The notes under the pieces were generated by a model, which was given only the letters and a program-made list of their open reading frames with translations, was not told where the DNA came from and made no database searches. The position numbers and the translations under genes were made by a program. From a virus, in the IMG/VR virus record IMGVR_UViG_3300032738_000331, positions 1 through 35,642 of that record: a stretch of 35,642 bases of DNA, one strand, 5' to 3'. Shown here one piece after another: positions 10,134-33,337 of this stretch (positions are counted from its first letter, which is position 1; every line of letters begins with the position of its first letter).

Positions 10134-10859
10134 TCATCCATTTTTTATGTCATAATGATATCCAGAAATTGAATATTCTAAATTATTTCCTGGGTAATCA
10201 TTGGGGGTTTCGCCTTCATATTCTGGAATTAATTTTTCACCATCATTCCTCTGAGCCACAACAAAATAATTTATCTTAGTGTATTCATTTTTATTACTCC
10301 ATGATAAGTGGGATATTGGTAAACCTTTAATATAAAATCCATTGGATTCAAGAGAATAAGTTAGAACTAATGGGACCATAGTGCAGCTCAAATGCACCGT
10401 TAATGTATTAGAATCTACAAAGTTATTCCAATAATCTGGGAACCTAACAAAAACATGAACTTTATCACGATATAGTTTAACACATCCCCTAAAATATACA
10501 CCATTCTCTGGACCCTCTAAACAAGTATGTCTAAGTCTCCAGTTTTGTTTCGCTGGGTGTGATATATCAAAATTCTTTTTAGATGATAATACATGACCAC
10601 CACCATTAGATGTTATTTCACCAGTGGCATTAACACCAGTGGCATTAACATTCTCCAGAGCCAATAAATTACCAACCTTCATATTATAATAATACCAAGG
10701 CTCACACCTAGGTTTTAAATCCAAATCAACATCATCAAGAATATCTTCTTTATGATGCTTTGGAACAAAATCAAATCTTGTTGATGGTACTCCACTAATT
10801 ACTGGATCAGCGCAATCAATTTCACCAAATAGACCCTCTTCTAATATACTTTCACTCAT
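10134..10859 (-). CDS. Fibre-type virion protein, paralogue of its upstream neighbour
   Basis: The ATG at 10857-10859 (MSESILEEGLFG) overlaps the previous gene's TGA as ATGA, so I prefer it to the slightly longer frame; this gives 241 residues. The first third is unique. The central motif KKNFDISHPAKQNWRLRH followed by TCLEGPENGVYFRG is shared almost word for word with the next upstream gene. The C-terminal beta-rich part ends GEKLIPEYEGETPNDYPGNN, again parallel to the neighbour. This module occurs in tail-fibre or appendage proteins of several phages. The exact structural role is not known to me. Translational coupling to its paralogue suggests they are made in similar amounts. Confidence 0.65.
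   Translation of the reverse strand: MSESILEEGLFGEIDCADPVISGVPSTRFDFVPKHHKEDILDDVDLDLKPRCEPWYYYNMKVGNLLALENVNATGVNATGEITSNGGGHVLSSKKNFDISHPAKQNWRLRHTCLEGPENGVYFRGCVKLYRDKVHVFVRFPDYWNNFVDSNTLTVHLSCTMVPLVLTYSLESNGFYIKGLPISHLSWSNKNEYTKINYFVVAQRNDGEKLIPEYEGETPNDYPGNNLEYSISGYHYDIKNG
10486..10577 (-). repeat. Copy 1 of a ~92-bp near-identical segment shared by two adjacent genes
   Basis: Bases 10486-10550 are identical to 11199-11263, and the match continues to about 10577 with only two mismatches (10551 and 10562). Flanking regions of the two genes are much less alike. Confidence 0.9.
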
Positions 10860-11677
10860 AATTTCCACCCCGATTCATTTCTTTTATCATAATCCCACCC
10901 AACAACTGAGTATTGCCTATTATCACCAGGATAATCATTTGGTGAATTTCCCCCATACTCTGGAATTAATTTTTCACCATCGATTCTCTCAGCAAATATT
11001 TGATAATCAAATTTCATGGTTGTTATTTTTTTATCCGATGAATATACTGTAATTTTGTGCCCATCTAATTTATAATAAAGACTTTGTGGCACATCAAATG
11101 GTGTTAATGTAACTGTGATATTATCTATATCAACAAAACCAACCCAATAACTAGGTAAGTCTATATCAACACTAAATCTACCGTATTCTTTAACCTTACC
11201 CCTAAAATATACACCATTCTCTGGACCCTCTAAACAAGTATGTCTAAGTCTCCAGTTTTGTTTTGCTGGGTGTGGTATATCAAAATTCTTCTTTAATGAT
11301 AGTAAATGTTGTCCCCCATTAAATCTTGATATAACTTCACCCTGTGCTAAAACGTGCCTACCAGTTGCAATCGTTTTATTGACTGATAGGTTATCAAATA
11401 TAGCAGCATCCCCAACAACTGATAGTGAATATGGTGAAAAATTCAATCCACAAACAGAACCTGGAATAATAGGTACTGGTGAATCAGTATTAAGAACTGG
11501 ACCAATCATTACCCCAGCAGAAATACTAGGGAATAATGATGTGCTACCAAAGATTGATGGCGATTCAATATAAGAAGAACCCCTAATTGTTTTTGGCCCT
11601 AATCCCAATGATACCGGATAGTTTTGCCCAACAACTAATTGGTGTGATATTGAAGCAGTATCTAATTGAAATGACAT
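10856..11677 (-). CDS. Fibre-type virion protein, paralogue of its downstream neighbour
   Basis: The 273-residue protein (MSFQLDTASISHQLVV) has a Gly/Ser-rich beta N-terminal half, then the shared module KKNFDIPHPAKQNWRLRH and LEGPENGVYFRG at about residues 133-165, then a beta-rich C-terminus with GEKLIPEYGGNSPNDYPGDN. Compared with the downstream gene, the N-terminal half is different while the module and end are common, suggesting duplication followed by replacement of the attachment half. It lies two bases from the beta-helix protein gene. It is probably a minor fibre or baseplate decoration protein. Confidence 0.65.
   Translation of the reverse strand: MSFQLDTASISHQLVVGQNYPVSLGLGPKTIRGSSYIESPSIFGSTSLFPSISAGVMIGPVLNTDSPVPIIPGSVCGLNFSPYSLSVVGDAAIFDNLSVNKTIATGRHVLAQGEVISRFNGGQHLLSLKKNFDIPHPAKQNWRLRHTCLEGPENGVYFRGKVKEYGRFSVDIDLPSYWVGFVDIDNITVTLTPFDVPQSLYYKLDGHKITVYSSDKKITTMKFDYQIFAERIDGEKLIPEYGGNSPNDYPGDNRQYSVVGWDYDKRNESGWKL
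11199..11290 (-). repeat. Copy 2 of the ~92-bp near-identical segment
   Basis: Partner of 10486-10577, offset by 713 bases. It encodes the ENGVYFRG and RLRHTCLEGP region of the upstream paralogue. Confidence 0.9.
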
Positions 11678-11679
11678 AA

Positions 11680-12315
11680 TTAAAATATTGAATTTTGATT
11701 GAATTCTTCGCTAGACGCCAAATAAGACTTATCAGCTAAGAACGATGATGCTGAACTTAGACTATTCATAAAATTACTATACATGTTCATTGATGTGTTT
11801 GCTATTAAATCAATTGTATATGGTGTAATCATCTTAATTCCACTCTTAGCCTTAACACTAAATCTTAGCGTGTTGATATTCACCGCTTCATTAGAATCAA
11901 TAATTACAGAACCCCTGGTATTATCTGGACCATCGGCTCTGATGTGAATATCTTGTGCTGACATTCTAATTCTACCATTTGGTGCCCGCAATACAATATC
12001 ACCATGCTCAGCTATAAGTAAAAATCCAATCCCATCCTCGGCATTTTCTGTACCAGCAGTATCGGATGCACATTTTATTCCATATACACCTGGACAACGA
12101 TTTAATGTCCAACCCTTTCGGACACCATCATTTTCTAATGTGGTATAATGGCGGCTATCAAGAGCTTGTAACATTACACCAGATTGAACATCAGATTCTA
12201 ATTCATCACCATTTCCAACATGCAAATGACCAAATTTAATTGTACCATTTTTATTACCATATTCTATGTTTTTATCGTCTTTCTTTTTTCCTGATGTTCC
12301 CCTATTACTTGTCAT
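11680..12315 (-). CDS. Baseplate spike-like protein with short beta-helix
   Basis: I choose the ATG at 12313-12315 (MTSNRGTSGKKKDD), preceded by GGGGAAG five bases upstream, over a further-upstream start inside gp5; this gives 211 residues. The central part reads in short repeated strands: GDIVLRAPNG, RIRMSAQDIHIRADG, SVIIDSNEAVNINT, KSGIKMITPYTIDLIA. That register resembles the triple-stranded beta-helix at the C-terminus of T4 gp5 and VgrG spikes. The gp5 homologue directly upstream shows no such C-terminus, so this could be a separately encoded needle or spike. The gene overlaps gp5 by 11 bases. The function is inferred from pattern and position. Confidence 0.5.
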   Translation of the reverse strand: MTSNRGTSGKKKDDKNIEYGNKNGTIKFGHLHVGNGDELESDVQSGVMLQALDSRHYTTLENDGVRKGWTLNRCPGVYGIKCASDTAGTENAEDGIGFLLIAEHGDIVLRAPNGRIRMSAQDIHIRADGPDNTRGSVIIDSNEAVNINTLRFSVKAKSGIKMITPYTIDLIANTSMNMYSNFMNSLSSASSFLADKSYLASSEEFNQNSIF

Positions 12316-14353
12316 ATACTTCCCCAACACAATCAACTACATCAATAATGGAGATACCAGCTGGGGTATTCTCCAATTCACTCAATCTAATAACATTGAA
12401 AACAGGAACCATTCTTGCATTAATTCCAGTTGTACTATTAATATATATGTTCGGTCTTTCAGTGAATCCTATACCTGGGCTATCAACAGCAACTTTAATT
12501 AATCTACCAGCATCATCAAACACTGGTGTTAATTCACTACCAAGATCTGGAGTAATAACAATATTATCATTATCATTATAATTTATTCCTGGATTTGTAA
12601 TATAGATATCCTTAATCTCCAATGCAACTGGGTATCTATTATTTAATCCCGGTCCTGAAATGACTTGAACAACTTCACCAACATTAAGTGATATTTCAGT
12701 GTTTGGTGGGATTACTGAATATGTTTGGCCATCATATACAATAGTGTCTTCTGGATTACTAAATTTATTTTGTCCTGCACCAGTACTTCCATTTGGTGAT
12801 TGTAAATATGCAACCCCAGTATCTAAAATAATTAAATCATTAATAGAGCCACCACTAGAATTAACTACAGGTAAAATGACTGCCCCATTACCAGTCCCAC
12901 AATTATTACCAAATGAAACTGATGGATTTTGAATATAATTTGATCCATTATTAAATACATCAAAGGCCAATAGTGCTCCTGATCCACTAATAATTGGGTT
13001 AGCAGAAAACCCACCACCAGTAGAGCTTATAATATTTACTTGAGGTGGACCACAAAGCACTGGGGCAGAACTACATGAACCACCACTAGATCCTAAAGCA
13101 TTAGAAATACTTTCTGATACATTTTCAGACATTTTTTGTGGGCCATACCAAAAACTCCACTCATCTATATCTGGGCATTTTAATGGTTCCTCGCATGAAA
13201 AGAATTTAAGAGTGTTAGAAATAATATCCAATGCACTTAATACATTTCCAGCAAAATCCACAACCTTACCCAAAATACCACTGATTGACGATAATGCACT
13301 ATCAATCGCACTTGTAATATCACCTAAAATATTAGATAATACACTACCAACAACATCTAAAACGCTACATATTGAGGCACTGACTCCACCAATTAACTCC
13401 ATAAATGCGGAAGTCACTAAACCTAAAAGTAATTTTGTAATTTTATTGAATACACAATTGAGAGTATCAGTTGCAGCTTCATTGGCAATTCTTAGATTTG
13501 GCCTTAAATTTGGTGGAATCAATGAAATACTAGACGCGACGACAGAATTAAATTGATTCAGAGTATAGTTTCTCATATTTTGAATCATTTCTTTAATGAA
13601 AGAACTAACCCCATTCGATACAGAATCAATTATTGATGATATTGATGTCGGCAATGCAGTAGCAGCATTTAAAAAACTATTTGTTTCACTATTTATTTTA
13701 TTAGTTGCGTTTAATCCATTCTGGATTATATTTTGCACCCCCTTAAGTTGTCCTTTGGGTCCGTCACAATCATAAGTTTTTGGTATATAATCAACCTTTA
13801 CCCCATCTTGTAATTGTATATGTCTTTCAACATAATTAACATTAGGATCAGTATTTTCCGAAGTACCAGTACCATCAGCTAATATTTTTAAATTTGATAC
13901 TAGGTGCCATTCTTTAGATGGATCATAGCCAGTAGCTGGAAAATACCTAGCCTCCTCTTCATTCTTATCATACTTAAATAATTCAGTCTGCGGCACATTT
14001 GGAATAAGTCCAAGTATAACCGGCTCTCTTGAATTGATACCGTCCTTATAATATCCCATAACATAGGTATTCTGACCAATGCTGGGGGTCATAGTACCCC
14101 CACCAATACCAGATCCGGCAGTTGTTGGTAGAAGGACTTCGGCCATAACAGCCTCATTATTTTTCAGCCCATCTTTAATAAACTTAGGATCTTGACCAAA
14201 CATTAATACTTTATATCGCTTTCCCCAACCAGGAACATCTTCACGATCATGAACTTCTGGGTTTTCATTCCCCTCCCAGTCCCCGAGCACCTGACCATAC
14301 CAGAAGGTAAATTTTGTTTTTCCTAAATGCTCGGAATTAAAATACTCAGACAT
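12305..14353 (-). CDS. 5: Baseplate hub protein gp5-like (OB-fold), without obvious lysozyme domain
   Basis: The ATG at 14351-14353 (MSEYFNSEHLGKTKFTFWYG) has a GAGG ribosome site at good spacing, giving 682 residues. Residues 10-125 match the OB-fold of cyanophage gp5: FWYGQVLGDW, DREDVPGWGKRYKV, VLLPTTAGSG, GQNTYVMGYYKDG and EPVILGLIPN. A long helical, hydrophobic segment follows (about 200-385). A Gly/Asn-rich beta section makes up the rest (GGGFSANPIISGSGALLAF, PGINYNDNDNIVITP). I see no T4-lysozyme-type catalytic sequence, so cell-wall cutting is probably supplied by the large proteins encoded upstream. gp5 trimers normally plug the tail tube and join the hub. Confidence 0.8.
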   Translation of the reverse strand: MSEYFNSEHLGKTKFTFWYGQVLGDWEGNENPEVHDREDVPGWGKRYKVLMFGQDPKFIKDGLKNNEAVMAEVLLPTTAGSGIGGGTMTPSIGQNTYVMGYYKDGINSREPVILGLIPNVPQTELFKYDKNEEEARYFPATGYDPSKEWHLVSNLKILADGTGTSENTDPNVNYVERHIQLQDGVKVDYIPKTYDCDGPKGQLKGVQNIIQNGLNATNKINSETNSFLNAATALPTSISSIIDSVSNGVSSFIKEMIQNMRNYTLNQFNSVVASSISLIPPNLRPNLRIANEAATDTLNCVFNKITKLLLGLVTSAFMELIGGVSASICSVLDVVGSVLSNILGDITSAIDSALSSISGILGKVVDFAGNVLSALDIISNTLKFFSCEEPLKCPDIDEWSFWYGPQKMSENVSESISNALGSSGGSCSSAPVLCGPPQVNIISSTGGGFSANPIISGSGALLAFDVFNNGSNYIQNPSVSFGNNCGTGNGAVILPVVNSSGGSINDLIILDTGVAYLQSPNGSTGAGQNKFSNPEDTIVYDGQTYSVIPPNTEISLNVGEVVQVISGPGLNNRYPVALEIKDIYITNPGINYNDNDNIVITPDLGSELTPVFDDAGRLIKVAVDSPGIGFTERPNIYINSTTGINARMVPVFNVIRLSELENTPAGISIIDVVDCVGEVYDK

Positions 14354-14361
14354 TATAGACC

Positions 14362-14571
14362 TCACTCATACATTCTACATTCTGGGGCTTCTGGGTTTAA
14401 ATTACAATATAATTCCAATGATGATGGGTTATGATTATCATCAGGATTATCAATTTTATATTGCATAATATTAACTAACTCATCCTCAAGATGTCTGCGT
14501 CTTTGCTTACTCATCATCACGGAATTTAATTCTTCGATTATATCTTTAGCACGATTATGTATTGTTTCCAT
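14362..14571 (-). CDS. Small conserved baseplate-region protein, function unknown
   Basis: A 69-residue, mostly helical protein (METIHNRAKDIIEELNSVMM) with basic QRRRHLEDEL and an end YCNLNPEAPECRMYE. The two cysteines near the end and the PEAPEC phrase are features I recall from a conserved small cyanophage protein beside gene 5. It abuts the hub-protein gene and sits 8 bases before the gp5 start, in the same transcript. Its role is unknown; assembly factor or minor hub component are possibilities only. Confidence 0.55.
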   Translation of the reverse strand: METIHNRAKDIIEELNSVMMSKQRRRHLEDELVNIMQYKIDNPDDNHNPSSLELYCNLNPEAPECRMYE

Positions 14572-15912
14572 TTATTTTTTATATATTGTATCTCTAACTA
14601 GATGTACTGAACTAAATGATCCTGTTCTATTAATTCTATGTGATATATCCATAATTAAGTATTTACCACTTTTAATATCGCTAGTCCTCTTAATTATATT
14701 TGATGTGTGTTCTAGAAAGTCACATTGGATAACATCACCGGCATGAATTCCAAAATCCATCGGTATCAATATATTTAGTTGTGATGTAAACATTTGATTT
14801 ACTCTATTTGATGCCTGCCTTGTTATCTTATCAATATCGAATTTAAATAGTTTAGATTCTGGTTGCTGTTCCTTCCAATTTCTACCTTTTGGTAATACCC
14901 CAGTATCCCAGAATTTGGTAGAAAATCTAGATGCTTTTTCTTGTAACTTCAAATCACTGGCTAATTTATAAAACTCAACACCCGCATTATTATCAACCAA
15001 CTCCTGCTCCAAATAATCAAAATCATTCTGTTCAAATGCTTTATTAAATGGCTCAAAGGTTCTTATCTCCCTTTTAAATAATGAACCAGAAACTAATTGA
15101 TCCTCAACATCAATATTAACATTCTCATAATGATTTATAATTTTATAATCATACCCATCTGGTAGTAATGTTGTAAGATTATGAATTAATTTTCTTTTTG
15201 GCTTCTGTGAGAATAATTTATCAATTGATTTAAATTTATATCCACCATTTTCCCCATCATGAGCTATTTCATAAAATAAATAACCAGCTAATACCCCATT
15301 TGCACCTGGAATATCCTCTGGGATACAGTGCTTAGCTAACCACGTGCAAATGTGAAATACTTTTTGACTTCCTCCAATAAAAGTAAATTCATTTAATGTC
15401 TTATCAGATTCTAAATCTTTACCAGTTTTAAGAACCTCGGTTAGAATTTCAGTAACCATATCATTAATTTTACCCTCATATTTCTGAGTTACCCTATTTT
15501 CAACCAAATGATTCATCATTGATTCTTTAGAATAGAAATCAGTTACAAGTGCAACACTAGTACTATTTCCACCAAAAGCTTCTCTAACACTACGTTTTGT
15601 TCTTAATTGATAATCACCAGTAAATAATAGTTTCTGTTTATATCCATCCTCAACAATTAATTCAGTCTTCTCACCCGCACTTTTATTAAAGAACCCCCTT
15701 CTGGCACTCTCAAAAACAGCACCGCCAGTTTCACCATAACCAGTATCAACAAATGCAGCACTAGCTCTTACTGTATTGTCCATTAAACTTTCATATAAAC
15801 TCAATTCAGAAATACCAGTAGAGAAATCTACAGTGGTCCCATCATAATTTGAAGTTATTTCTAATTTCTTAATATCAGAATTCCCACCCTGGGCAGATAC
15901 ATTTGATGGCAT
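14572..15912 (-). CDS. Baseplate hub protein, gp27-like candidate
   Basis: The 446-residue protein (MPSNVSAQGGNSDIKKLEIT) opens with a hub-domain pattern: strands, then ISELSLYESLMDNTVRASAA and FVDTGYGETGG, as in tail-hub proteins (T4 gp27, Mu gp44 type). It ends with strands around LNILIPMDFGIHAGDVIQCD and SGKYLIMDISHRINR, typical of the second hub domain. T4 gp27 is 391 residues, so size fits. It is encoded between the cell-wall-cutting tape-measure-like protein and gp5, its expected binding partner. Its ATG overlaps the upstream stop as TAATG. The gp27 assignment is inferred from pattern and place, not from an alignment. Confidence 0.5.
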   Translation of the reverse strand: MPSNVSAQGGNSDIKKLEITSNYDGTTVDFSTGISELSLYESLMDNTVRASAAFVDTGYGETGGAVFESARRGFFNKSAGEKTELIVEDGYKQKLLFTGDYQLRTKRSVREAFGGNSTSVALVTDFYSKESMMNHLVENRVTQKYEGKINDMVTEILTEVLKTGKDLESDKTLNEFTFIGGSQKVFHICTWLAKHCIPEDIPGANGVLAGYLFYEIAHDGENGGYKFKSIDKLFSQKPKRKLIHNLTTLLPDGYDYKIINHYENVNIDVEDQLVSGSLFKREIRTFEPFNKAFEQNDFDYLEQELVDNNAGVEFYKLASDLKLQEKASRFSTKFWDTGVLPKGRNWKEQQPESKLFKFDIDKITRQASNRVNQMFTSQLNILIPMDFGIHAGDVIQCDFLEHTSNIIKRTSDIKSGKYLIMDISHRINRTGSFSSVHLVRDTIYKK

Positions 15913-18900
15913 TATGCTCTACCTAGATCTAAGTTCATTTCTGGAACACTAGAAGATCCAGATGCAATAAATGGATATCCCATTGTTTTTGCTATTTGTT
16001 GTGATGGTTTATTAATAATTACAGGTTGTATAAACACATTAGCTGTTTGAGTTGGTTCATTATACGATGCGAATTTACTTATATTATTACTATTTATTTG
16101 TGGTTGTAGTGACGATACCCCACCTCTAGTCTGGGTTTGTTGAATTCTCATGACTTCCTGTGCTCTTTTAAGGAAGTCATTTTTATCAATTTGCCTGCCT
16201 TGCATATCAAAATATTTATCTTCTGGTAATCCTAGTATATTTCTTCCAGCAACAAATGTACCCACTCCAGGTATTCTTACTTTCTCTCCACTACCAGGCT
16301 TTGCGGATTTAATTTTCTTATCTAAATCACCAGCCATTTGTGGTGTAATGATTGGTGATGCAGTGTTGGTTGCTCTCGATGTTGGTGCTGCTGCGGCTGA
16401 TCTACCTAATTGTGGTGGTTTATTTTTATCTTGTTGTTTTCTGTGATTTTCCTTGTCTTCTGCCGTCCAAACTTTAGGCTTCCAAACATCTTTACCATTT
16501 TCCTTTACAATTATACCCTCAACACCATTTTTCATTGCTAATCTAGTGGGATTTTCAGCTTTCCATCCAGTTTGCCAAGGTTTAACCACCTCATTCCTTA
16601 AAACTTTCCATGGATCACCACCTTTATCCAATGAATTTACATGAGTTGTTGCATGTGGGCCAGATGCACTACCACTCATACCCTGTAATCCTATTATTTG
16701 ACCACGGGTTAATACCTGCCCAACTCTTAGATTTGATTTTTTATGTAAGTGTCCTATCAATAATTCATATTTTTTTCCATCTTTACCAATAAATGTTCCG
16801 GTGATATAATGCCCAAATCCTCTAGTACCATTCCAATTCCATCCATCAGCTTTTGTGATTGTTAATTTATCTACTGGGTTTGGGATTTTTGCTCCATTAT
16901 TAAACCCACCAGAAGAATCTAATAATGCAACATCCATACCAGAATGCTGATTATCTGGATCATTACTTTGTGTAATAGTTGCCCCACCTTTATAAGCTAA
17001 GGTGGCACCATTTAAATGCCCTCCAATACTAACCTGAGGCATTCCTGGGACCAACATAGCCCTATTTCCCGCTGTATTAAAAATATGTCCTTTATGTCTG
17101 ATTGTATTAACATTCTGAGAAGAATCCCCCCCAGCACTTGGTGTTCTAAATCCAGTAACTGCTAGAAGATTTCTTATTTGTGATTCATTATAACCTTCTG
17201 ATTTTAATTTTGTTTTTAATTGGTCCGTATTCAATGCAAGAATCAATGCACTATTCGCTTTCGCATATTCAGATTCAGTGAGTGTTCTTTTCAACTTACC
17301 TTCTCTTACTGGCTGATATTGGCCCGACCCATTGATAATATCAGTTAAACTTGAACTATTAGATAAATATTCACCTGCTGTAATTTTACCAGCTTTTATT
17401 AAAGCAGATCGATTTAATACGGATCTAGCTACTAAAGCAAGACCAACATCACCCTGCCCACTCGCTTCAGCAATCATCAATCGTAGTAATAATTCCCTCT
17501 CACCCCCAGTGACACCCTTTATATCCTCAATAAATTGCCCATCCCCATCAAATCCATCACCTGATTCCCCAGGATTTTCACCTCCTCTTTCATAATCGCT
17601 CTTACTGATCTCCATTTTAACAACATTTAATGCCTCCTTCATTTTCTTGCTAATGGATCTCTGAAGAACACCAGATAATTGCTTACTATCCATCAAACCA
17701 GAATCAATTGATAATGATCTTTCGGGTGGAATTTCACCACCCATTGAAAATGTCGAAATTCTTGACAATAATTGTCTAGTATTATCTGCACTAAAGGCAG
17801 ATACAATATACATAATTGAGTTTGATATATTCTCATATATATTCTTCGATGGCATCTGACCAAGAACCATATCAACAGTCGATGACATAAGAGAACCAAT
17901 ACCAAATGGTATATCTCTCATAATTCCAGCAATTTTAGTTAATGCTCCAAACGGGTTTGGTTTTTTTCTCCCAGATACCCTATCAATAACATCACTAAAA
18001 GTATGTGAATTTTCTGGATCTTTAAACAGCTTTGTAATCTCCCTTGGGCCACCTACATTTTTTCCTGGGGCGCTTCTTTCATTTCTAATTACAGGTCTTT
18101 TAATATCCTGATGTTTGGCTTTTATTGTTCTTTTAGGTGCTCTGGATCTGACAATTCGCCTTTTCTTATTTGTTTTCGCTACCGTTCCACCTGACCTAGC
18201 ACCCTGTGTCTCCTTTGGTCCGACGTTCTTTTTACCTGTGAAAAACACATCATAAAGCTTAGCACCAATGTAATCACCAGCAAGTCCCCCCAGAATGGCA
18301 CCAACTGGCCCCCCTAAGCCAGCTCCAATCGTTCCAAGTAGGCCAGCACCAATTAGGGAAAATGCAGCCCTTCCTAGGGGCTCTCCAAGTGCAACAGAAA
18401 TTCCAAAATCAAGAAAAGCACCTATAACGGCCATTCGTCTTAGTGCTGGTCTTACTGCCTTTAATATCACACCACGCCCGATCTTTTTTGTGGAAATTCT
18501 AGCTAGTTGCTTAGCCTTAGTTAATTTACCCTTAGGAGCTTTTGGGGTTTTAGAATCAGGTTTTTTTGAATTTGGTTTATTAGGATCTCTCTTATTTGGA
18601 TCAGGCGTATCCTTCTCATCTAATATAGAATTTGCTAATAGTTTTGTGCCACCCATTACAGCCAGCATAGTTGCTCCAGATAGAGCAAATAGAGTTCCAA
18701 AATAACCCAATTGATCTGTAAATTTATTGAAAATATTCTGTGATTCTGGTGCTCCATCTTCACCCTTAACTCTTTTTATTAAACCACTTATTGTATCATG
18801 TAATTTATATCCTTGATCAACAAAAAATACAAAAGTATCTAATAAAAACATAAATGTATTATTAATTACCTCAAAGAAAGAAGCAGTTAAAATCGATCCG

Positions 18901-19328
18901 ATTTTCCTAACTAGAGGTGAAGCCCCACCTAAAGAAAAATTATTAAATAGCCACCCTAAAAATGTAAATAATAGAAAGTTTCCTATCTTATCAAAAAAAT
19001 TAAAATTAATTTTATTGAAGGGATTTGTTATACTTGGTAATTTTATACCTAAACCCTTTGGTTTTTCTAGTTTCTTTTCTCTATCTTCATTCTTTTCTTT
19101 TTTAGCTTGCTCTCTCTTTCTTTTATCCTCTTCTTTATTATTTTTTATTAATTTTTTGAGTGATTCATTAACCTCTTCTAATGGAGTACCAATAGTATAT
19201 AAAATACCATTATTTTGTGGTGTTGAAGTGGTAGATTTATTACTCTGAATTCTACTACGCCTTACTCTAGGACTTGTATTAGTCTTCTTGTTTATAGTTG
19301 TTAATTTTGATAGTAAAGTTGAACCCAT
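15912..19328 (-). CDS. Tail tape-measure-like protein with SleB-type hydrolase and M23 endopeptidase domains
   Basis: 1,138 residues. A Lys/Glu-rich coiled region (about 55-95) leads to a hydrophobic segment (FLLFTFLGWLFNN, about 117-130) and further membrane-like stretches near 140-175, 215-235 and 305-360, the last very glycine-rich. At about 605-760 is a cell-wall hydrolase of the SleB type: LLLRLMIAEASGQGDVGLAL and ARSVLNRS. At about 790-895 is a peptidase M23-like domain: HSGMD (zinc ligands), GHLH with RVGQVLTRGQIIGLQG, and SGPHATTHVN in place of the usual TGPHLHFE. A role in perforating the cell wall during injection is inferred. It is coupled to the hub gene and follows the related 934-residue gene by 3 bases. 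Confidence 0.72.
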   Translation of the reverse strand: MGSTLLSKLTTINKKTNTSPRVRRSRIQSNKSTTSTPQNNGILYTIGTPLEEVNESLKKLIKNNKEEDKRKREQAKKEKNEDREKKLEKPKGLGIKLPSITNPFNKINFNFFDKIGNFLLFTFLGWLFNNFSLGGASPLVRKIGSILTASFFEVINNTFMFLLDTFVFFVDQGYKLHDTISGLIKRVKGEDGAPESQNIFNKFTDQLGYFGTLFALSGATMLAVMGGTKLLANSILDEKDTPDPNKRDPNKPNSKKPDSKTPKAPKGKLTKAKQLARISTKKIGRGVILKAVRPALRRMAVIGAFLDFGISVALGEPLGRAAFSLIGAGLLGTIGAGLGGPVGAILGGLAGDYIGAKLYDVFFTGKKNVGPKETQGARSGGTVAKTNKKRRIVRSRAPKRTIKAKHQDIKRPVIRNERSAPGKNVGGPREITKLFKDPENSHTFSDVIDRVSGRKKPNPFGALTKIAGIMRDIPFGIGSLMSSTVDMVLGQMPSKNIYENISNSIMYIVSAFSADNTRQLLSRISTFSMGGEIPPERSLSIDSGLMDSKQLSGVLQRSISKKMKEALNVVKMEISKSDYERGGENPGESGDGFDGDGQFIEDIKGVTGGERELLLRLMIAEASGQGDVGLALVARSVLNRSALIKAGKITAGEYLSNSSSLTDIINGSGQYQPVREGKLKRTLTESEYAKANSALILALNTDQLKTKLKSEGYNESQIRNLLAVTGFRTPSAGGDSSQNVNTIRHKGHIFNTAGNRAMLVPGMPQVSIGGHLNGATLAYKGGATITQSNDPDNQHSGMDVALLDSSGGFNNGAKIPNPVDKLTITKADGWNWNGTRGFGHYITGTFIGKDGKKYELLIGHLHKKSNLRVGQVLTRGQIIGLQGMSGSASGPHATTHVNSLDKGGDPWKVLRNEVVKPWQTGWKAENPTRLAMKNGVEGIIVKENGKDVWKPKVWTAEDKENHRKQQDKNKPPQLGRSAAAAPTSRATNTASPIITPQMAGDLDKKIKSAKPGSGEKVRIPGVGTFVAGRNILGLPEDKYFDMQGRQIDKNDFLKRAQEVMRIQQTQTRGGVSSLQPQINSNNISKFASYNEPTQTANVFIQPVIINKPSQQIAKTMGYPFIASGSSSVPEMNLDLGRA

Positions 19329-19331
19329 TTA

Positions 19332-22136
19332 TTAACCTACCATCACACCATAGGTTTCTAAAATCCTTGCCCTATCAGTTAAAGCTGAATTTGGAACTGT
19401 TGAGAACATGTATCCCATATCACCGCCACCGGAATTAGACGCTATAGGTGTTCTACCACCACCAACAATAGGTGGCAATGTTGAAACATTCCCGCCAGAT
19501 TTATCTCTTGAATATGGCCTAATACTCGATTGATTTGTATTATTTCTCATTAATTGCGAAGAACCTGTAGATGACATACTTGGTGGTCTTATTGTCAATC
19601 CACCCCTAATTGGCTCAGTTCTTGCCTTCTCTACAATATTCCTCTCTGATGACGTAGCCTTATCACTTGGCCCAACCCATGGAGAAATTCCACGTTCTTT
19701 CATTAAATGTAGGGCTAATATATCTTGAACCTGTGGGGTAAACTTCATATTCATATTAAGGTTTGCCTTCTTCAACAATTCTGGTAAGGTATTTCCCACA
19801 ATTTGATACTTACCAACTGCATGTAATTTGCCAGCTTTAATCCACTGATCATCATCCATGGATTTATCATCATGTTGAAGTTCAATAATCTCAGCAATTG
19901 TTAAACTTGTTAGTGGTTTTCCTTTGTGTTGTGTCATTTTAGTGAAATCGCCGGAATATCCAGATGTCCCTCTTCCCCCAGAATGACCTAATTGATTAAC
20001 AGCATTATATCCACCACTAGATAATGATTCATACTTACCAAGAACCTCTAAGGCATCCCTTTGACTTTTGGTTAAATTAGATGTTATACTTGGTATAGTT
20101 GCAGCGCCAGCAGGTCTACCACCAATTGGCACGGGTTGTTTTGGTCTTGGCTTCGGTGTTGGTTTACCTCTTCTATTAACTTTTCTTGGCTTCGGTGTTG
20201 GGGTAGTTTGCGTCCCACCACTCCAAATATTACCTAGATTTCTCTGCACATTCCCGGTAATATTTATAGCTGCATTACCAACACCACGTAATTTATCAAC
20301 AGCAGAACTACCAACACCACGTAATGCATTACCAACACCACTTAATGGATTTGTCATCCCACCCAATCTCTCCCTAATTCCACCTACAATACCACCCCAT
20401 TGATAACCGCTTATTGAATTTGAACCAAATGCAGATGTGATATTATCACCATTACGAGTTTGTATTTTATTAGAATCAACTTTTTTTACTGGCCTTTTAC
20501 CAACATAAGATGCAACATCAAATCCAGTTTTTGAATGTATATTTTCTTGGTCCTTATGTGTTAATACAACTTCACCTGGCTTAGCCACGATTAATTGGGT
20601 ATCTGGGCCAGCCCCGGTAACAGATACCCCAGTATCACTCTCAACCCCACCATAACCATCTTCTAATACACCACCAGATTCCAAACTCTGAAGCATTCCA
20701 TATGGAGAGGCTTGAATATTCCCAACATTGCCAACACCAGGAACTGGAATTGCCTTTCCAGACTGTACCTTAGCAGCTCTTTCAGTTTGTTTCTGGGCAG
20801 CTTCGTTCTGACCAGTAACTTTATTAGCCAAATATGATGTACCAGCAACAGCACCAATAACTAACCCAGCCTTACCTAATGGGCTCTTCAATAACTTACC
20901 AGCTCCCCTGGCAAGTTTTGATTTAGCAAGTTTTCCAACTAGTGATTTCAATCCACCAATAGCTTTAATCATTCTAGGAATGAATTTTATTATCCATGAT
21001 GTCATTCCCTTAACTATTTTTAAGGTACTTAAAATAAAACCACCAAGTGGAGTCAAAAATAATACGACAGCAGCTAATATTGCAGGCCACCAATCTTTAA
21101 TAAATCGGTTTAATGTCTCAACTTTCTTAGCATTAGCTGGATCAGTAAACCATTTCAATAAAGAATTGAATAATTTTCCTAATACAGTAAAGACTATAAA
21201 CTTCCTAATAGCTTCAAGAACACTTTCAAATGGTTTGAGTATATTTTTAAATACAACTAGTTTTTTTAATTTCCTACCTAATTCTAATCCATCTTCACGT
21301 TTCTTTCTATTCTTTTTTTCTTCATCTGTTCTATTTTTTCGTTCTTCTTTAGTTCCTTTTTTAAGTGAATCCTTAAAAATTAAATTAATAGAACCAATAG
21401 TTTTTAGAATCTTTGATAGCTCAGCTTCACCATCAAAATTACTAGGTTTTAATACTTTTTTATTTATTTTATCTGGTTTTAGTATACCTTTAATTTTTTT
21501 ATTAGGTATACTTGAACTGTTTGGCTTATTCTTAACAAATTCAAACTGACCAGTTTTATCCTTAATCCTTAAAAATTCAGTTCGTATTTTCTCAACTTTC
21601 TCAGTTGATCCCCCCCTACCAATTTGAGCTTTTACTAGATATTCCTTAAGAAATAATCGATATTCTTCATAAGTAAAATCTTTAATGTCATTAAGACCTA
21701 AAGTATTTAATACATCAGTATCAACAATTTCTCTAACAAATTTATTAGATTTTTTACTACTTATTCTTCTGGATCTTATTGCTGGTTTTTTGGGGGGATC
21801 TGGTTGTTTTGGTATTTTTGTGTTTGATTGCTTTGAAAACTTATCCTTGTTATTAACGTAGTAATCCCAAAGATAATAATAATACTCCAGTCTAGTCCCA
21901 GGAACAGACACAGCCTGATCCACAGGTGATGGGTGTTTTTTATCAGATTTTAATATAGCCTCAATAACTGTCCCAACAACATCATCAACATTAACATTAA
22001 ACTTCTTAGCAATAGCTTCCGAAACCGATTCAAAATTAGATTCGATTGATTCTAAATATAACTTCCTTCTGGATGCGGATTGATCCTTAATTGGGGTTAC
22101 ATATTGTGAAATTAACTTGTTAACCGTTGATGCCAT
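19332..22136 (-). CDS. Tail tape-measure-like protein with lysozyme-like domain
   Basis: 934 residues (MASTVNKLISQYVTPIKDQS). Residues 1-300 are helical and strongly charged. At about 311-325 a hydrophobic segment FIVFTVLGKLFNS closely matches one in the downstream 1,138-residue protein, followed by membrane-like WWPAILAAVVLFLTPLGGFI and a Gly-rich helix near 400-440. A Pro/Lys-rich linker (PTPKPRKVNRRGKPTPKPRP) precedes a lysozyme-like domain at about 690-830: LGKYESLSSGGYNAVNQ (likely catalytic Glu), AVGKYQIVGNTLPELLKKA, FTPQVQDILALHLM. The size, helicity and membrane segments fit a tape-measure or gp29-like role with a built-in muramidase; this is inference. Its start overlaps gp51 by 17 bases. 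Confidence 0.68.
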   Translation of the reverse strand: MASTVNKLISQYVTPIKDQSASRRKLYLESIESNFESVSEAIAKKFNVNVDDVVGTVIEAILKSDKKHPSPVDQAVSVPGTRLEYYYYLWDYYVNNKDKFSKQSNTKIPKQPDPPKKPAIRSRRISSKKSNKFVREIVDTDVLNTLGLNDIKDFTYEEYRLFLKEYLVKAQIGRGGSTEKVEKIRTEFLRIKDKTGQFEFVKNKPNSSSIPNKKIKGILKPDKINKKVLKPSNFDGEAELSKILKTIGSINLIFKDSLKKGTKEERKNRTDEEKKNRKKREDGLELGRKLKKLVVFKNILKPFESVLEAIRKFIVFTVLGKLFNSLLKWFTDPANAKKVETLNRFIKDWWPAILAAVVLFLTPLGGFILSTLKIVKGMTSWIIKFIPRMIKAIGGLKSLVGKLAKSKLARGAGKLLKSPLGKAGLVIGAVAGTSYLANKVTGQNEAAQKQTERAAKVQSGKAIPVPGVGNVGNIQASPYGMLQSLESGGVLEDGYGGVESDTGVSVTGAGPDTQLIVAKPGEVVLTHKDQENIHSKTGFDVASYVGKRPVKKVDSNKIQTRNGDNITSAFGSNSISGYQWGGIVGGIRERLGGMTNPLSGVGNALRGVGSSAVDKLRGVGNAAINITGNVQRNLGNIWSGGTQTTPTPKPRKVNRRGKPTPKPRPKQPVPIGGRPAGAATIPSITSNLTKSQRDALEVLGKYESLSSGGYNAVNQLGHSGGRGTSGYSGDFTKMTQHKGKPLTSLTIAEIIELQHDDKSMDDDQWIKAGKLHAVGKYQIVGNTLPELLKKANLNMNMKFTPQVQDILALHLMKERGISPWVGPSDKATSSERNIVEKARTEPIRGGLTIRPPSMSSTGSSQLMRNNTNQSSIRPYSRDKSGGNVSTLPPIVGGGRTPIASNSGGGDMGYMFSTVPNSALTDRARILETYGVMVG

Positions 22137-22293
22137 CTTGTCGTTTCTTATTTCTTATTTCTTCTTCTTCTAAATGCTGTTCAAGTAAGATTAAGTAAAT
22201 ATCCCTTTCCCAAGGAATCATATCTTCGATTTCAACGAGTGACCAGTGGTGGTATTGAATCAAAGCAAAGTTTGTTTTATAATAACTTATCAA
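22120..22293 (-). CDS. 51: Baseplate hub assembly protein gp51-like, TTG start
   Basis: A 57-residue frame not starting with ATG: (L)ISYYKTNFALIQYHHWS, then LVEIEDMIPWERDIYLILLE and a Glu-rich tail with basic end (IRNKKRQDGING). The SYYKTNFALIQ and IPWERDIY pattern matches what I recall of cyanophage gp51, a catalyst of hub assembly. In the frame between the upstream stop and this block the only NTG codon is TTG at 22291-22293; no ATG or GTG is available and no clear ribosome site is seen. It fills the gap between gp26 and the 934-residue gene and overlaps the latter, so coupling to gp26 is likely. In T4, gene 51 is likewise near gene 26. Confidence 0.68.
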   Translation of the reverse strand: MISYYKTNFALIQYHHWSLVEIEDMIPWERDIYLILLEQHLEEEEIRNKKRQDGING

Positions 22294-22310: not shown

Positions 22311-23075
22311 CTAGTCGAAAAAATCGGCAAGACCCTCTAACACAACTTCACATTTAACTTTTGTTTCTTTATTTGTGAATTTAAGTTTATGCCTCAATTT
22401 TGGCATAGTATCAAAGAATGTGCTGATGGTTTGAAATGATGACTGGTCTAAACTTTCAACAAAATCATTTAATTCATCATCCGTACAGTCAGATGTGGAA
22501 TATGATTCACCATCATTAGAGGTAATGGTATCAATACATCCTGAAATCAATCTAAAAGTTTGATTCATTTGCTCCAATTTACCATCACCGTCAATTAATT
22601 CACCATTCTCATCAGTGTTCTTAGAATAATCAAAATTATTATCAATGAAGTGTTTGAATGTAGGATACTTCATTTTAATAATTAGATCATCACCAATTTC
22701 AAATGTGTCCTTGTGGTCTTTATTTCTTTCAACTTTAATATCGTTAACGTTTAGTTTTATATCAATCTCAGTCTCACCATCATCTGGGCATACTAAACGA
22801 AGATTGAATATATCATCAACCGATCTCCTATACATGTTAAGGAATAGGAATTCCAAATCGAATGTAGATAGATCATCGATATTTAAATCTTTATCTAAAA
22901 CACAATTACTTAGAACTTGCCTAACTGCCATTGTAACTTGATTTGGATCATTTGATTCATTGGCAATGATCATAATCTTCTCTTCTTTTACAAGAAATGG
23001 GCGATATCTAATCGATTTCTTATTTGAAGGCAATTCAATTTCATAAATTGGGGTATTTAGTTTTGGTAATGACAT
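22311..23075 (-). CDS. 26: Baseplate hub subunit gp26
   Basis: 254 residues, MSLPKLNTPIYEIELPSNKK, with KSIRYRPFLVKEEKIMIIA, the hallmark opening of the T4 gp26 baseplate family, and LRLVCPDDGETEIDIKLN. In T4 gp26 is a minor hub protein needed for the central part of the baseplate. The end (LRHKLKFTNKETKVKCEVVL, GLADFFD) also fits cyanophage homologues. A perfect late promoter lies about 30 bases upstream. The stop is followed within 18 bases by the probable gp51 start. Confidence 0.85.
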   Translation of the reverse strand: MSLPKLNTPIYEIELPSNKKSIRYRPFLVKEEKIMIIANESNDPNQVTMAVRQVLSNCVLDKDLNIDDLSTFDLEFLFLNMYRRSVDDIFNLRLVCPDDGETEIDIKLNVNDIKVERNKDHKDTFEIGDDLIIKMKYPTFKHFIDNNFDYSKNTDENGELIDGDGKLEQMNQTFRLISGCIDTITSNDGESYSTSDCTDDELNDFVESLDQSSFQTISTFFDTMPKLRHKLKFTNKETKVKCEVVLEGLADFFD

Positions 23076-23132: not shown

Positions 23133-24002
23133 TCAAATGAAATTAATATTACTATTGAATGCTATTGGGTTATTAATAATTCCAGCTAGTCTACTAGAAA
23201 AATCCCCAGCACTGCTGGTGTTTGTATTATTACTTTGCACTGCAATATTATTCTGTGGTGCTGATGATGCAGATGCAGATGAAGATGCACTACCATTTCT
23301 TTTAAGAATATAACGGGAATAACTCATCGATATCGTGCATTTCAATAACTGTGATGATTCATAGGTTACTGGCATTGATGCTATATTAATTGGATATGCA
23401 TCTTTGAATATATATTCTAGTATAGACTTATTATCATTAGCGGAATTATCATTTTTATATTTGGTTCCAAATCCCGGCCCAATTTTATTTGTTTCATTTA
23501 GATCATAATCCTTTTCAAATTTGTAAATTCTAATATCATTCCGATAATATTTTGGAAATCTAACTCTATAAAAATAATTTGATGCTTCTATACCACCATT
23601 AGATTCAGTGGTAAATTGTTCATTCACGATATATGACATCCACTTCTCAAAAAACCAAATAATATTATATCCACTTTTAAATGTTCTACCTCCAGTATCA
23701 ACATAAAATGTAAAATCAGTTTGATTGTCATATAATCTCCTATACGCAAATCTCTCAGTTACCCCGTGATAATCATCACTAACTTGATTTGTAGTCAGTG
23801 ATGAACCCGGAAGATATGCATCACTACAAGATAAACTAATCAACTCTTGCATAATAGAATTATTATAAATTAATTCATTACTAGCCAAGTGATTGATAAC
23901 CGATTCAGGTGGGGTAAATGAACATACAAAATGGGAGGTTAATGCTGGCTTCAATAACAAAGCCCGTACAGTATTTGCTTCAACTGCGTTTGGTAAAACC
24001 AT
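23133..24002 (-). CDS. 54: Baseplate tail-tube initiator gp54
   Basis: 289 residues starting MVLPNAVEANTVRALLLKPA, followed by LTSHFVCSFTPPESVI, SLSCSDAYLPGSSL and YHGVTERFAYRRLYDNQTDF. These match the cyanophage gp54 family as I know it; gp54 sits on the baseplate and nucleates the gp19 tail tube, to which it is related in fold (TFYVDTGGR, YNIIWFFEKWMSYI, YYRNDIRIYKFE). The end is a Ser/Asn-rich flexible tail (residues about 240-289). It is the first gene of the leftward late block, opposite gp4, and starts just 28 bases from its promoter. Confidence 0.83.
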   Translation of the reverse strand: MVLPNAVEANTVRALLLKPALTSHFVCSFTPPESVINHLASNELIYNNSIMQELISLSCSDAYLPGSSLTTNQVSDDYHGVTERFAYRRLYDNQTDFTFYVDTGGRTFKSGYNIIWFFEKWMSYIVNEQFTTESNGGIEASNYFYRVRFPKYYRNDIRIYKFEKDYDLNETNKIGPGFGTKYKNDNSANDNKSILEYIFKDAYPINIASMPVTYESSQLLKCTISMSYSRYILKRNGSASSSASASSAPQNNIAVQSNNTNTSSAGDFSSRLAGIINNPIAFNSNINFI

Positions 24003-27665: not shown

Positions 27666-28310
27666 CTAGTTCTGTTGTATTTTTTTTAATGAATCACTTA
27701 TTTTTTTCCTAGTTTCTTCTGAGAGTGTTTTTCCTTTTCTAAATTCACTCATTTTCTTTCTAGTTTCTTCTGAATGTTTTTTACCATAAAATGGATTATT
27801 TTCACCACTTAAAGATTCACTTATTTTTCTCTTAGATTCTTCTGTGTGTTTTCTACTTTTTCCATAATTTGGATTATTTTTACCTTTAGTGGCTTCACTC
27901 ATTTTTTTTCTATGTTCTTCTGAATGTTTTTTACCATAAAAATGATGTTTTTCACCACTTTTAGATTCACTCATTCTCTTTTTAGTTTCTTCTGAGAAAA
28001 TTCTTTCTTTTAGTTTCTTTTTTGTTTCTTCTGAATGAATATACCCAGAACACCAATCACCACCATCAGTACGATTCTGTAGAATCCCAGTTCGCAAATC
28101 TTTTCTACCTAGAACTGAGATCATGTATATCTCATGTTTAAAGGCTTCTTCTTCAGTTAGATTTTGTTTTAGAAATAATATTCTATCTTTATCTTTAGGT
28201 GGTAATACTCTGTGACGATGAATACAATAAGCTCTACTACCTTTACCCTTACCAATATAATAAGGAGTTCCGTCTTCTCTTAAGTAAGCATAGGTATAAT
28301 AGTTATTCAT
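27666..28310 (-). CDS. GIY-YIG homing endonuclease with NUMOD3 repeats
   Basis: 214 residues. The GIY-YIG nuclease core is at 4-90: [34 protein letters not shown], a [15 protein letters not shown] helix and GGDW. Residues about 90-212 are DNA-binding repeats of the NUMOD3 type, [49 protein letters not shown], and so on. Free-standing endonucleases of this kind spread by cutting a nearby target in related phages. The ATG overlaps the gp59 stop (ATGA) and the gene ends just before the gp32 promoter. The nearby target may be gene 32 or 59; T4 SegG beside gene 32 is a parallel. Confidence 0.88.
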
Positions 28311-29247: not shown

Positions 29248-29905
29248 GTCGGAATTGATTCAATTGTTTCTTAAATTTTTTGATGTATTTCATATCAAAT
29301 TTTTCTATGAATACTTCAACTTCCATATCACGAGAAACCATCATAATAACAATTTGTTTAACTTTAACTCCCGTCAATTCATAGATCATGCAAGAATATA
29401 TTGCACATTGAATAAAATAAGATTCAATCCATTCCTTACGTTTAATTTGGTCACTGGTTTTAGTATCAATAATAGATAGCTCACCATCAAACTCAGCTAT
29501 AATATCTGGAGTTCCCGCAACACCTAATATTTTACTATAAAGCTGCTGCTCTATGCATCGTATATTATTTATACGATGCAATGTTGGCTTTAATTTATTA
29601 AAAAACATTTTCAATAATGGTCTAGAGAAATCAACTTCTTTATTCTGAAGATAATTCTCAACAATACTATGAAAAGCCGTACCATTGGTTGATGTTCTGT
29701 TCATTTTATTATCAGCAGCTCTATCCCCGACTCTATTTCTCCATTTTTGAATTGATTCCTTTTTAGCATGTGATAATACAGATGTCACAGAAACCATTGG
29801 TTTTGTTTTTGTGTCACCAACAATAATATAATGTCTAACTCCATTAATTTCTATTCTCTCTAATTTTGGGAACTCAATATCAAAACCCTTATAATCATAT
29901 TTCAT
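29225..29905 (-). CDS. RecB-like PD-(D/E)xK exonuclease
   Basis: 226 residues. After an N-terminal beta section (MKYDYKGFDIEFPKLERIEI, VSVTSVLSHAKKES) come the RecB/Cas4/MGME-type nuclease motifs: GTAFHSIVENYL (His), VAGTPDIIAEFDG (Asp), LSIIDTKTSDQIK (DxK) and FIQCAIYSCMIYE (Q-x3-Y). Such phage exonucleases take part in recombination or DNA degradation. The start overlaps the PhoH stop (ATGA), so they are co-translated. The coding region includes a perfect 11-bp inverted repeat and the -35 box of the gp33 promoter. Confidence 0.75.
   Translation of the reverse strand: MKYDYKGFDIEFPKLERIEINGVRHYIIVGDTKTKPMVSVTSVLSHAKKESIQKWRNRVGDRAADNKMNRTSTNGTAFHSIVENYLQNKEVDFSRPLLKMFFNKLKPTLHRINNIRCIEQQLYSKILGVAGTPDIIAEFDGELSIIDTKTSDQIKRKEWIESYFIQCAIYSCMIYELTGVKVKQIVIMMVSRDMEVEVFIEKFDMKYIKKFKKQLNQFRLDNQLQV
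29554..29580. repeat. Perfect 11-bp inverted repeat within the exonuclease gene
   Basis: TGCATCGTATA (29554-29564), a five-base TTATT spacer, then TATACGATGCA (29570-29580). It encodes His-Arg-Ile-Asn-Asn-Ile-Arg-Cys. There is no T tract, so it is not a typical terminator. Confidence 0.85.
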
Positions 29906-32554: not shown

Positions 32555-33337
32555 CTATTTAACAAGTTTCCAACCTCTATATGTTTTCCTCTTCTCATTA
32601 ATTAACCTACTAACACCATTTGGTAATAAGTTATTATTATTTGCAAATAAAGATAACTCACCAATAATAACATAATAATATTCCCCATTAGGAGATAATA
32701 AACAATATTTATTACCAGAACCTGGACTATTCCAATCACTTACCGGCTTTAAATTTTTAATTTTACTGGGATTTGTTAAAGTCCACCCCTTATGTTTATA
32801 TTGTTTATATGATCTAAGTGAATATAAACAATATAAACTTAAATTATTATCTATTGAAAATTGTTTAATATTTGTACCAGAATAGATAATACCATCTGGG
32901 GAGGTGAAGGAATATTGGCTCACATGTAGTGGTGGCTTTATCCAAAGATTTTTATTCCGTTTAGACAGTCGTAATTTTGCCTCATTGCTCATTCCAGGCC
33001 CAAGTATCCTACCCCTAAGAGATTTACTAATCTTAATTTTACTTTCTTTTGTATGTCCTGTAAATATTGGAGGTGAATCACCACCATCAGTAAGGTTTCT
33101 AAGTATTCCAGTTCCTAAATCTTTTCTACCTAAAACATCAATCATGTATTTCTCATGTTTAAATGCTTCCTCTTCAGTTAGGTTTTGCTTTAGGAATAGT
33201 ATTCTATTTTTATCTTTAGGAACCGGAAGACGACGATTTGAATTGAATGCTCTATCATTAGACCCCTTACCGATATAATAAGGAGTTCTGTCTTCCCGCA
33301 AATACGCATAAGTATAAAATCTGTTAGGATTTACCAT
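32555..33337 (-). CDS. GIY-YIG homing endonuclease with different C-terminal DNA-binding repeats
   Basis: 260 residues. Residues 6-90 ([60 protein letters not shown]) closely match the first 90 residues of the GIY-YIG enzyme between gp59 and gp32. The rest differs: a short NUMOD3-like helix (HTKESKIKISKSLRGR) and two copies of a 48-residue module of the type YSFTSPDGIIYSGT...NNLS...YKHKGWTL and YCLLSPNGEYYYVI...NNLL...YRGWKLVK. The target is probably in thyX next door or its intein-free relatives. The ribosome site is AAGAGCAG. Confidence 0.85.
   Translation of the reverse strand: MVNPNRFYTYAYLREDRTPYYIGKGSNDRAFNSNRRLPVPKDKNRILFLKQNLTEEEAFKHEKYMIDVLGRKDLGTGILRNLTDGGDSPPIFTGHTKESKIKISKSLRGRILGPGMSNEAKLRLSKRNKNLWIKPPLHVSQYSFTSPDGIIYSGTNIKQFSIDNNLSLYCLYSLRSYKQYKHKGWTLTNPSKIKNLKPVSDWNSPGSGNKYCLLSPNGEYYYVIIGELSLFANNNNLLPNGVSRLINEKRKTYRGWKLVK

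Follow-up and report, generated by a model that had tools for sequence, protein, structure and literature searches.

T4 has one lysozyme, which sits in gp5, and one tape measure, gp29. The passage of marine T4-like cyanophages through the cyanobacterial wall has been little studied, and the proteins treated here are mostly annotated as hypothetical or as endolysin. In the Anabaena myophage A-1(L), the hub protein gp15 combines a lysozyme, an endoglucanase and a peptidase domain, and two of the three were shown to lyse host cells (PMC10966104). Wall-cutting motifs within tape measures are also known from TM4 (PMC1796659) and from enterococcal phages (PMC10194240). Given these precedents, a cyanophage tail equipped with several wall-cutting enzymes is not new in kind. 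Here we analyze a 35,642-base virus record (IMG/VR IMGVR_UViG_3300032738_000331, positions 1 to 35,642; "the window"), which carries a T4-like structural module on the minus strand, and in it two neighboring genes on that strand whose products we call P1 (934 amino acids, aa) and P2 (1138 aa). Both open reading frames are uninterrupted. Protein-level relatives of the window are chiefly Synechococcus and Prochlorococcus phages of the Kyanoviridae; a DNA-level search with the window matched no close phage record.

Predicted wall-cutting domains of P1 and P2

Our analysis identifies three wall-cutting domains of different kinds, distributed over two proteins in tape-measure position, as a first-pass annotation of the window had claimed from its sequence; the matches come from PHROG, from PF01551 and from a profile match to lambda lysozyme.

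The lysozyme-like domain lies in P1, again as annotated. It matches the PHROG endolysin families 1200 (E 3.5e-14) and 90 (3.4e-8), and none of the Pfam and NCBIfam models match it. With a profile of 33 relatives searched against 177,635 PDB sequences, lambda lysozyme (3d3d, 1am7) gave the two best matches (E 9e-4), and hhalign aligned the domain to lambda lysozyme with a probability of 95% over 49 columns. The candidate catalytic glutamate, Glu703, is conserved in 97% of 59 aligned sequences, together with Y777-Q778 of a VG(K/R)YQ motif, Q804 and W820; it lines up with lambda Glu19, the N-terminal half of the lambda alignment being weak. Since lambda lysozyme is a lytic transglycosylase, our best guess is that the P1 domain is a transglycosylase as well. 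Relatives of the domain occur in 66 viral contigs, nearly all at 49-66% identity.

P2 was said to combine a SleB-type hydrolase with an M23 endopeptidase, and here the picture is more graded. The SleB-like domain matches PHROG 34252 (7.9e-23, labeled endolysin), and a wider stretch (aa 575-780) matches PHROG 2588 (2.2e-34, unknown function). The Pfam family Hydrolase_2 (PF07486) gives no report for P2 at E 0.1 and is reached through relatives only: P2 homologues of 40-48% identity are reported at E 6e-3 to 2e-5, below the 27-bit cut-off, and a distant relative (L012 of our locus set) exceeds this cut-off with 31.6 bits. In an alignment with five phages (40-48% identity) the catalytic Glu621 and the A-E-(A/S) and N-R motifs are invariant. 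The profile places Glu621 on the glutamate of the A-E-(A/S)-x-G motif of SleB 4f55 in a non-significant match (E 0.55). Relatives of the SleB-like domain are encoded by 115 of 190 candidate viral stretches. The third domain scores 26.9 bits (E 5.7e-6) against PF01551, whose cut-off is 28.7 bits, and in the PDB it finds M23 enzymes, those of lysostaphin type among them (E 1e-3 to 1e-2). Loss of catalytic residues on alignment is thus not seen for Glu703 or Glu621; the M23 motif, in which HxxxH replaces HxH, is altered, and for this reason we name the domain M23-like rather than M23.

Homologous cores and a shuffled toolkit

P1 and P2 are related to each other. Their homologous cores align by hhalign with a probability of 98.2 (E 2.7e-14; 36% identity). 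The E-value is flattering because charged helical sequence makes up a portion of the match, which nonetheless continues into a hydrophobic stretch.

Relatives were retrieved by the lysozyme-like domain alone and by domain alignments; single-query scans of viral contigs with P2, its M23-like or its SleB-like domain returned nothing, and with P1 only a near-identical fragment (L003). The survey comprised every locus obtained in which gp26 and the downstream tail gene flank the interval (n=113, or 99 when loci of identical make-up are counted once). In these 113 cyanophage-type loci the space from gp26/gp51 to the next tail gene is taken up by a P1/P2 pair or, in some, by a single gene. Recognized wall-cutting domains number none in 4 loci, one in 63, two in 42 and three in 4, that is at least one in 109 of 113, a frequency biased upward because most loci were obtained through the lysozyme-like or SleB-like domain. 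Further types met were amidase_2, VanY, GH19, glucosaminidase, GH24 and M23, whose counts are a lower bound since the probes came from only few phages. Domains against glycan and domains against peptide or amide bonds were found together in 36 of the 99 distinct loci, and the three-domain loci are S-CREM2, B23, L160 and L164. Kits are also present in records chosen independently of the lysozyme-like and SleB domains (through gp26 or the tail-length comparison). In S-PM2, P1 bears Phage_lysozyme2 and P2 bears M23; P-HM1 has VanY, S-N03 has GH19 plus Phage_lysozyme, and S-CRM01 has one protein with Phage_lysozyme; the P1/P2 module of S-SSM7 showed no recognized wall-cutting domain. The notion that such a kit is remarkable in one phage does not survive this survey, given that nearly all relatives bear hydrolases in the same P1/P2 module. 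The kit of the window is one new mix in a widespread, freely shuffled cyanophage toolkit.

The four best-sampled domain families are each found in either gene, the numbers of loci for P1 and P2 being 27 and 15 (lysozyme-like), 7 and 43 (SleB), 3 and 24 (Amidase_2) and 2 and 10 (M23). The tree of the lysozyme-like domain contains at least six changes of gene slot by well-supported branches, and eight by parsimony. The nearest relative with both cores homologous to those of the window (E 1e-65 and 3e-45) is L073 (IMG/VR 3300010370_000509). Like the window it has a lysozyme-like domain and an M23-like domain of the HxxxH type; unlike the window it bears the lysozyme-like domain in P2 rather than P1, no SleB-like domain was found in it, and it reads DxxxD for HxxxD.

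In some relatives, namely L004, L089, L090, L094, L096, L105, L108, L110, L113 and S-CRM01 (L173), one P protein of about 860-1000 aa takes the place of the pair, so the pair may have arisen by duplication or the single-protein form by loss. As a separate observation, P1 of S-PM2 (L175, 9886-13389) combines its C-terminal Phage_lysozyme2 with a match to ADP-ribosyltransferase in its N-terminal part (PF01129, 25.1 bits, above cut-off), and this protein in tape-measure position may also deliver a host-modifying enzyme.

Proposed tape-measure role, entry and alternatives

We propose that P1 and P2 are tandem related tape-measure-type proteins housed within the contractile tail of an uncultured, T4-like cyanophage of Kyanoviridae type, the C-terminal half of each bearing interchangeable wall-cutting domains. 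Upon sheath contraction P1 and P2 would exit the tube with or before the DNA. Glycan strands would next be opened by the lysozyme-like domain of P1 and the SleB-like domain of P2, and peptide cross-links cut by the M23-like domain if it is active, leaving a local hole in the peptidoglycan. The gp5 of this family would serve as a spike without lysozyme, the enzymes being housed in P1 and P2 instead. We judge this entry model as a whole to be quite probable; within it, the tape-measure role, the order of release and the enzymatic activity are inferred.

The gp5-like protein of the window has no lysozyme match, and neither do the gp5-like proteins of ten other Kyanoviridae (10/10); eight of them have an at least weak match to the Gp5 OB domain, and most of the ten records are nonetheless titled 'baseplate hub and tail lysozyme'. 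With the lysozyme missing in the ten tested relatives too, the lysozyme-free gp5 is a family trait. The annotation was right about gp5, but its suggestion that this particular kit may explain the missing lysozyme is not supported. It is reasonable that cutters in P1 and P2 compensate for the lysozyme-free gp5 at family level.

That P1 and P2 are tape measures is likely; this reading draws on their position, their synteny with chaperone genes, their size and the virion proteomes published for relatives. The gene order in the window is tail tube-like protein, gp26, gp51, P1, P2, PHROG 350 tail protein and gp5-like spike. Between the tail chaperones and the hub P1 and P2 thus occupy the same place as in relatives, and the Kyanoviridae records compared show the same succession of gp26, gp51, P1, P2 and a hub-type tail protein, with the tube-like gene upstream and gp5 downstream. 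The corresponding proteins are found in virions: the virion proteome of S-CREM2 contains 73 unique peptides of ORF208 and 71 of ORF209 (PMC10665884), and ORF213/214 of S-SCSM1 were detected in a virion whose tail measures 173 nm (PMC9602691). S-CREM2 has the longest P1/P2 (1565/1456 aa) and, with 418 nm, the longest tail among isolated cyanomyoviruses (PMC10665884). S-N03 (933/722 aa; 138 nm) and S-H34 (936/735 aa; 129 nm), which belong to the same cluster as S-CREM2, have much shorter proteins; S-SCSM1 has 950/1131 aa, and S-CRM01 has a single 864-aa protein and a tail of 140-170 nm. The comparison of protein length with tail length covers these few phages (five). An arrangement of P1 and P2 in series in the tube was considered. 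The difference in tail length between S-CREM2 and S-N03 would need ~0.2 nm per residue if both proteins count and ~0.4 if one does, but simple addition does not account for relatives such as S-CRM01, which have one P protein and a tail of normal length, and we make no claim for a series. Across the loci the length of P1 correlates with that of P2 (r 0.78-0.82; 86-87 distinct pairs).

Several observations weigh against this reading. The length correlation falls to 0.26-0.34 once the recognized domains are removed, and the loci are not independent. By hhalign P1 and P2 show no similarity to T4 gp29 (probability under 1%) and no homology to T4 gp26 or gp28; tape measures of different phage groups are often dissimilar in sequence. 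The first-pass label 'tape-measure-like' accordingly holds for position, synteny, size and the virion proteomes of relatives, and fails for homology to gp29. The authors who described S-CREM2 and S-SCSM1 treated the proteins as non-structural enzymes that may have been packaged in the capsid or carried over from lysis (PMC10665884, PMC9602691). The encapsulation suggested for S-CREM2, like the missing resemblance to gp29, would suit capsid-internal pilot or ejection proteins, comparable to the internal proteins of podophages, that pass through the tail at infection. We regard this alternative as unlikely: gp26/gp51, P1, P2 and hub make up a tape-measure gene order that holds no other tape-measure candidate between the tail chaperone and hub genes, the lengths of the pair are correlated, and the longest pair belongs to the longest-tailed phage. 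Less probable still is that P1 and P2 are lysis enzymes that free the progeny. The 'endolysin' labels in GenBank and PHROG, and domains of endolysin types, point that way, but proteins of 500-1570 aa encoded between tail chaperone and hub genes, with a long shared non-enzymatic core, speak against it, as does their presence in CsCl-purified virions of two relatives, with many peptides in S-CREM2.

The tape-measure model is itself compatible with a further possibility, to which we give slightly less than an even chance, namely that at least one domain of the three is catalytically dead and acts only as a peptidoglycan binder or a structural plug; the M23-like domain is the likeliest candidate. 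Wall-cutting activity of the P1 and P2 domains is in any case a prediction, and in the M23-like domain the motif itself has changed. HxxxD is kept as H795-S-G-M-D799 and His860 is also there, but the strand expected to carry HxH reads H892-A-T-T-H896. Only two of the relatives found, L073 and L088, share this HxxxHVN variant, and both have lost the histidine of HxxxD, reading DxxxD and DxxxN, respectively. Another M23 lineage of the same module (L083, L084) reads NQGLD, and the score below the Pfam cut-off likewise favors a dead domain. M23 domains of the same module elsewhere (L009, L081, L160, L164, L118, L151, L165, L100) mostly retain HxxxD and HxH. On the other side, the window copy retains all five residues H795, D799, His860, H892 and H896, and a two-residue insertion in the strand could leave both histidine side chains facing the same way. 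This copy may be an unusual active M23 enzyme or one on its way to losing activity, and the HxxxH variant is a small enzyme puzzle in itself. The altered metal/catalytic motif makes the cutting of peptide bridges by this domain uncertain; of the bonds named in the annotation, the three domains would cover glycan and probably peptide.

A wider proposal, which we put forward tentatively and with the balance somewhat against it, is that T4-like cyanophages measure their tails with two homologous tape measures, both carrying exchangeable wall-cutters that hop between genes and between phages. If true, this would also explain why the tail of S-CREM2 reaches 418 nm, the two 'endolysins' of that phage being its tape measures. 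Reading P1 and P2 as paired tail proteins with shuffled cutters corrects their annotation, makes entry testable domain by domain and supplies a direct candidate for the determinant of tail length.

The locus and its closest counterparts

Table 1. Features of the P1/P2 region, with coordinates in the window.
Feature	Coordinates	Strand	Basis and remarks
P1, tape-measure-type tail protein with lambda-lysozyme-like domain	19332..22136	-	PHROG 35029 (unknown function), 1200 and 90 (endolysin)
Lambda-lysozyme-like (GH104-like) domain, P1 aa ~690-835	19632..20069	-	Candidate Glu703 at bases 20028-20030; V774-GKYQ motif
P1 aa 239-360, charged helical and hydrophobic segment, homologous to P2 aa 42-169	21057..21422	-	hhalign; 36% identity
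P2, tape-measure-type tail protein with SleB-like and M23-like domains	15912..19328	-	PHROG matches
P2 aa 42-169, homologous to P1 aa 239-360	18822..19205	-	hhalign
SleB-like (Hydrolase_2) domain, P2 aa ~604-770	17019..17519	-	PHROG 34252; alignment to PF07486-matching relatives; Glu621 at bases 17466-17468
Divergent M23-like domain, P2 aa ~785-910	16599..16976	-	PF01551 below cut-off; H795/D799, His860, H892-A-T-T-H896
gp51-like baseplate hub assembly catalyst, 57 aa, TTG start, overlaps P1 start	22120..22293	-	Comparison with phage gp51 sequences
gp26-like baseplate hub protein/chaperone	22311..23075	-	PF12322 E 3.5e-63; PHROG 150; T4 gp26 E 6e-10
Tail tube-like protein	23133..24002	-	PHROG 45, Phage_TTP_2
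Conserved tail protein downstream of P2, 'gp27-like' by position	14572..15912	-	PHROG 350 E 4e-57
gp5-like baseplate hub/spike protein	12305..14365	-	PHROG 1922; no Pfam family, no lysozyme domain detected

Elsewhere on the minus strand of the window, two neighboring open reading frames downstream of gp5 (10134-11677; 244 and 273 aa) both match PHROG 17490 and are tandem paralogues. A PhoH-like protein (29902-31890) is split by a large intein-like insert, at about aa 104-515 and ending VTHN/S (the slash marks the junction), which resembles stretches in phage terminase and primase families. A ThyX-like thymidylate synthase (33367-35076) is split by an HNH-containing intein-like insert (RTHRLMSFD/CLAEES... 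VVHN/CQSQRYTG). Two homing-endonuclease-like genes (27666-28310 and 32555-33337), both PHROG 15526, lie among the gp59/gp32 and the PhoH/ThyX genes.

Our best find is the general pattern of twin homologous proteins in tape-measure position with enzyme domains hopping between them. In the open-access literature (subscription papers lay outside the search) we found no description of the Kyanoviridae P1/P2 as a paired, domain-swapping tape measure. S-CREM2 and S-SCSM1 share with the window the gene slots and the long-protein type with wall-cutting domains, there present in virions by mass spectrometry and annotated as 'endolysin', 'lysozyme' and 'carboxypeptidase'. Their kits differ from that of the window, with GH19 in P1 and lysozyme-like plus GH24 in P2 of S-CREM2, and glucosaminidase in P1 and VanY in P2 of S-SCSM1. 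Synechococcus phage B23 likewise has three domains on two proteins, its kit being GH19 in P1 and Phage_lysozyme2 plus M23 in P2. The metagenomic loci L160 and L164 have SleB followed by M23 in P2, as in the window, but an Amidase_2 in P1 and an M23 with canonical HxxxD/HxH. As in T4, a tail part would cut the wall at entry and the proposed tape measures are encoded in the hub/chaperone cluster; unlike in T4, gp5 is without a lysozyme match and P1/P2 are without similarity to gp29. With A-1(L) the window shares three wall-cutting domains in a cyanophage tail component, which in A-1(L) reside in the hub protein gp15 of a different myophage and in the window in two proteins in tape-measure position.

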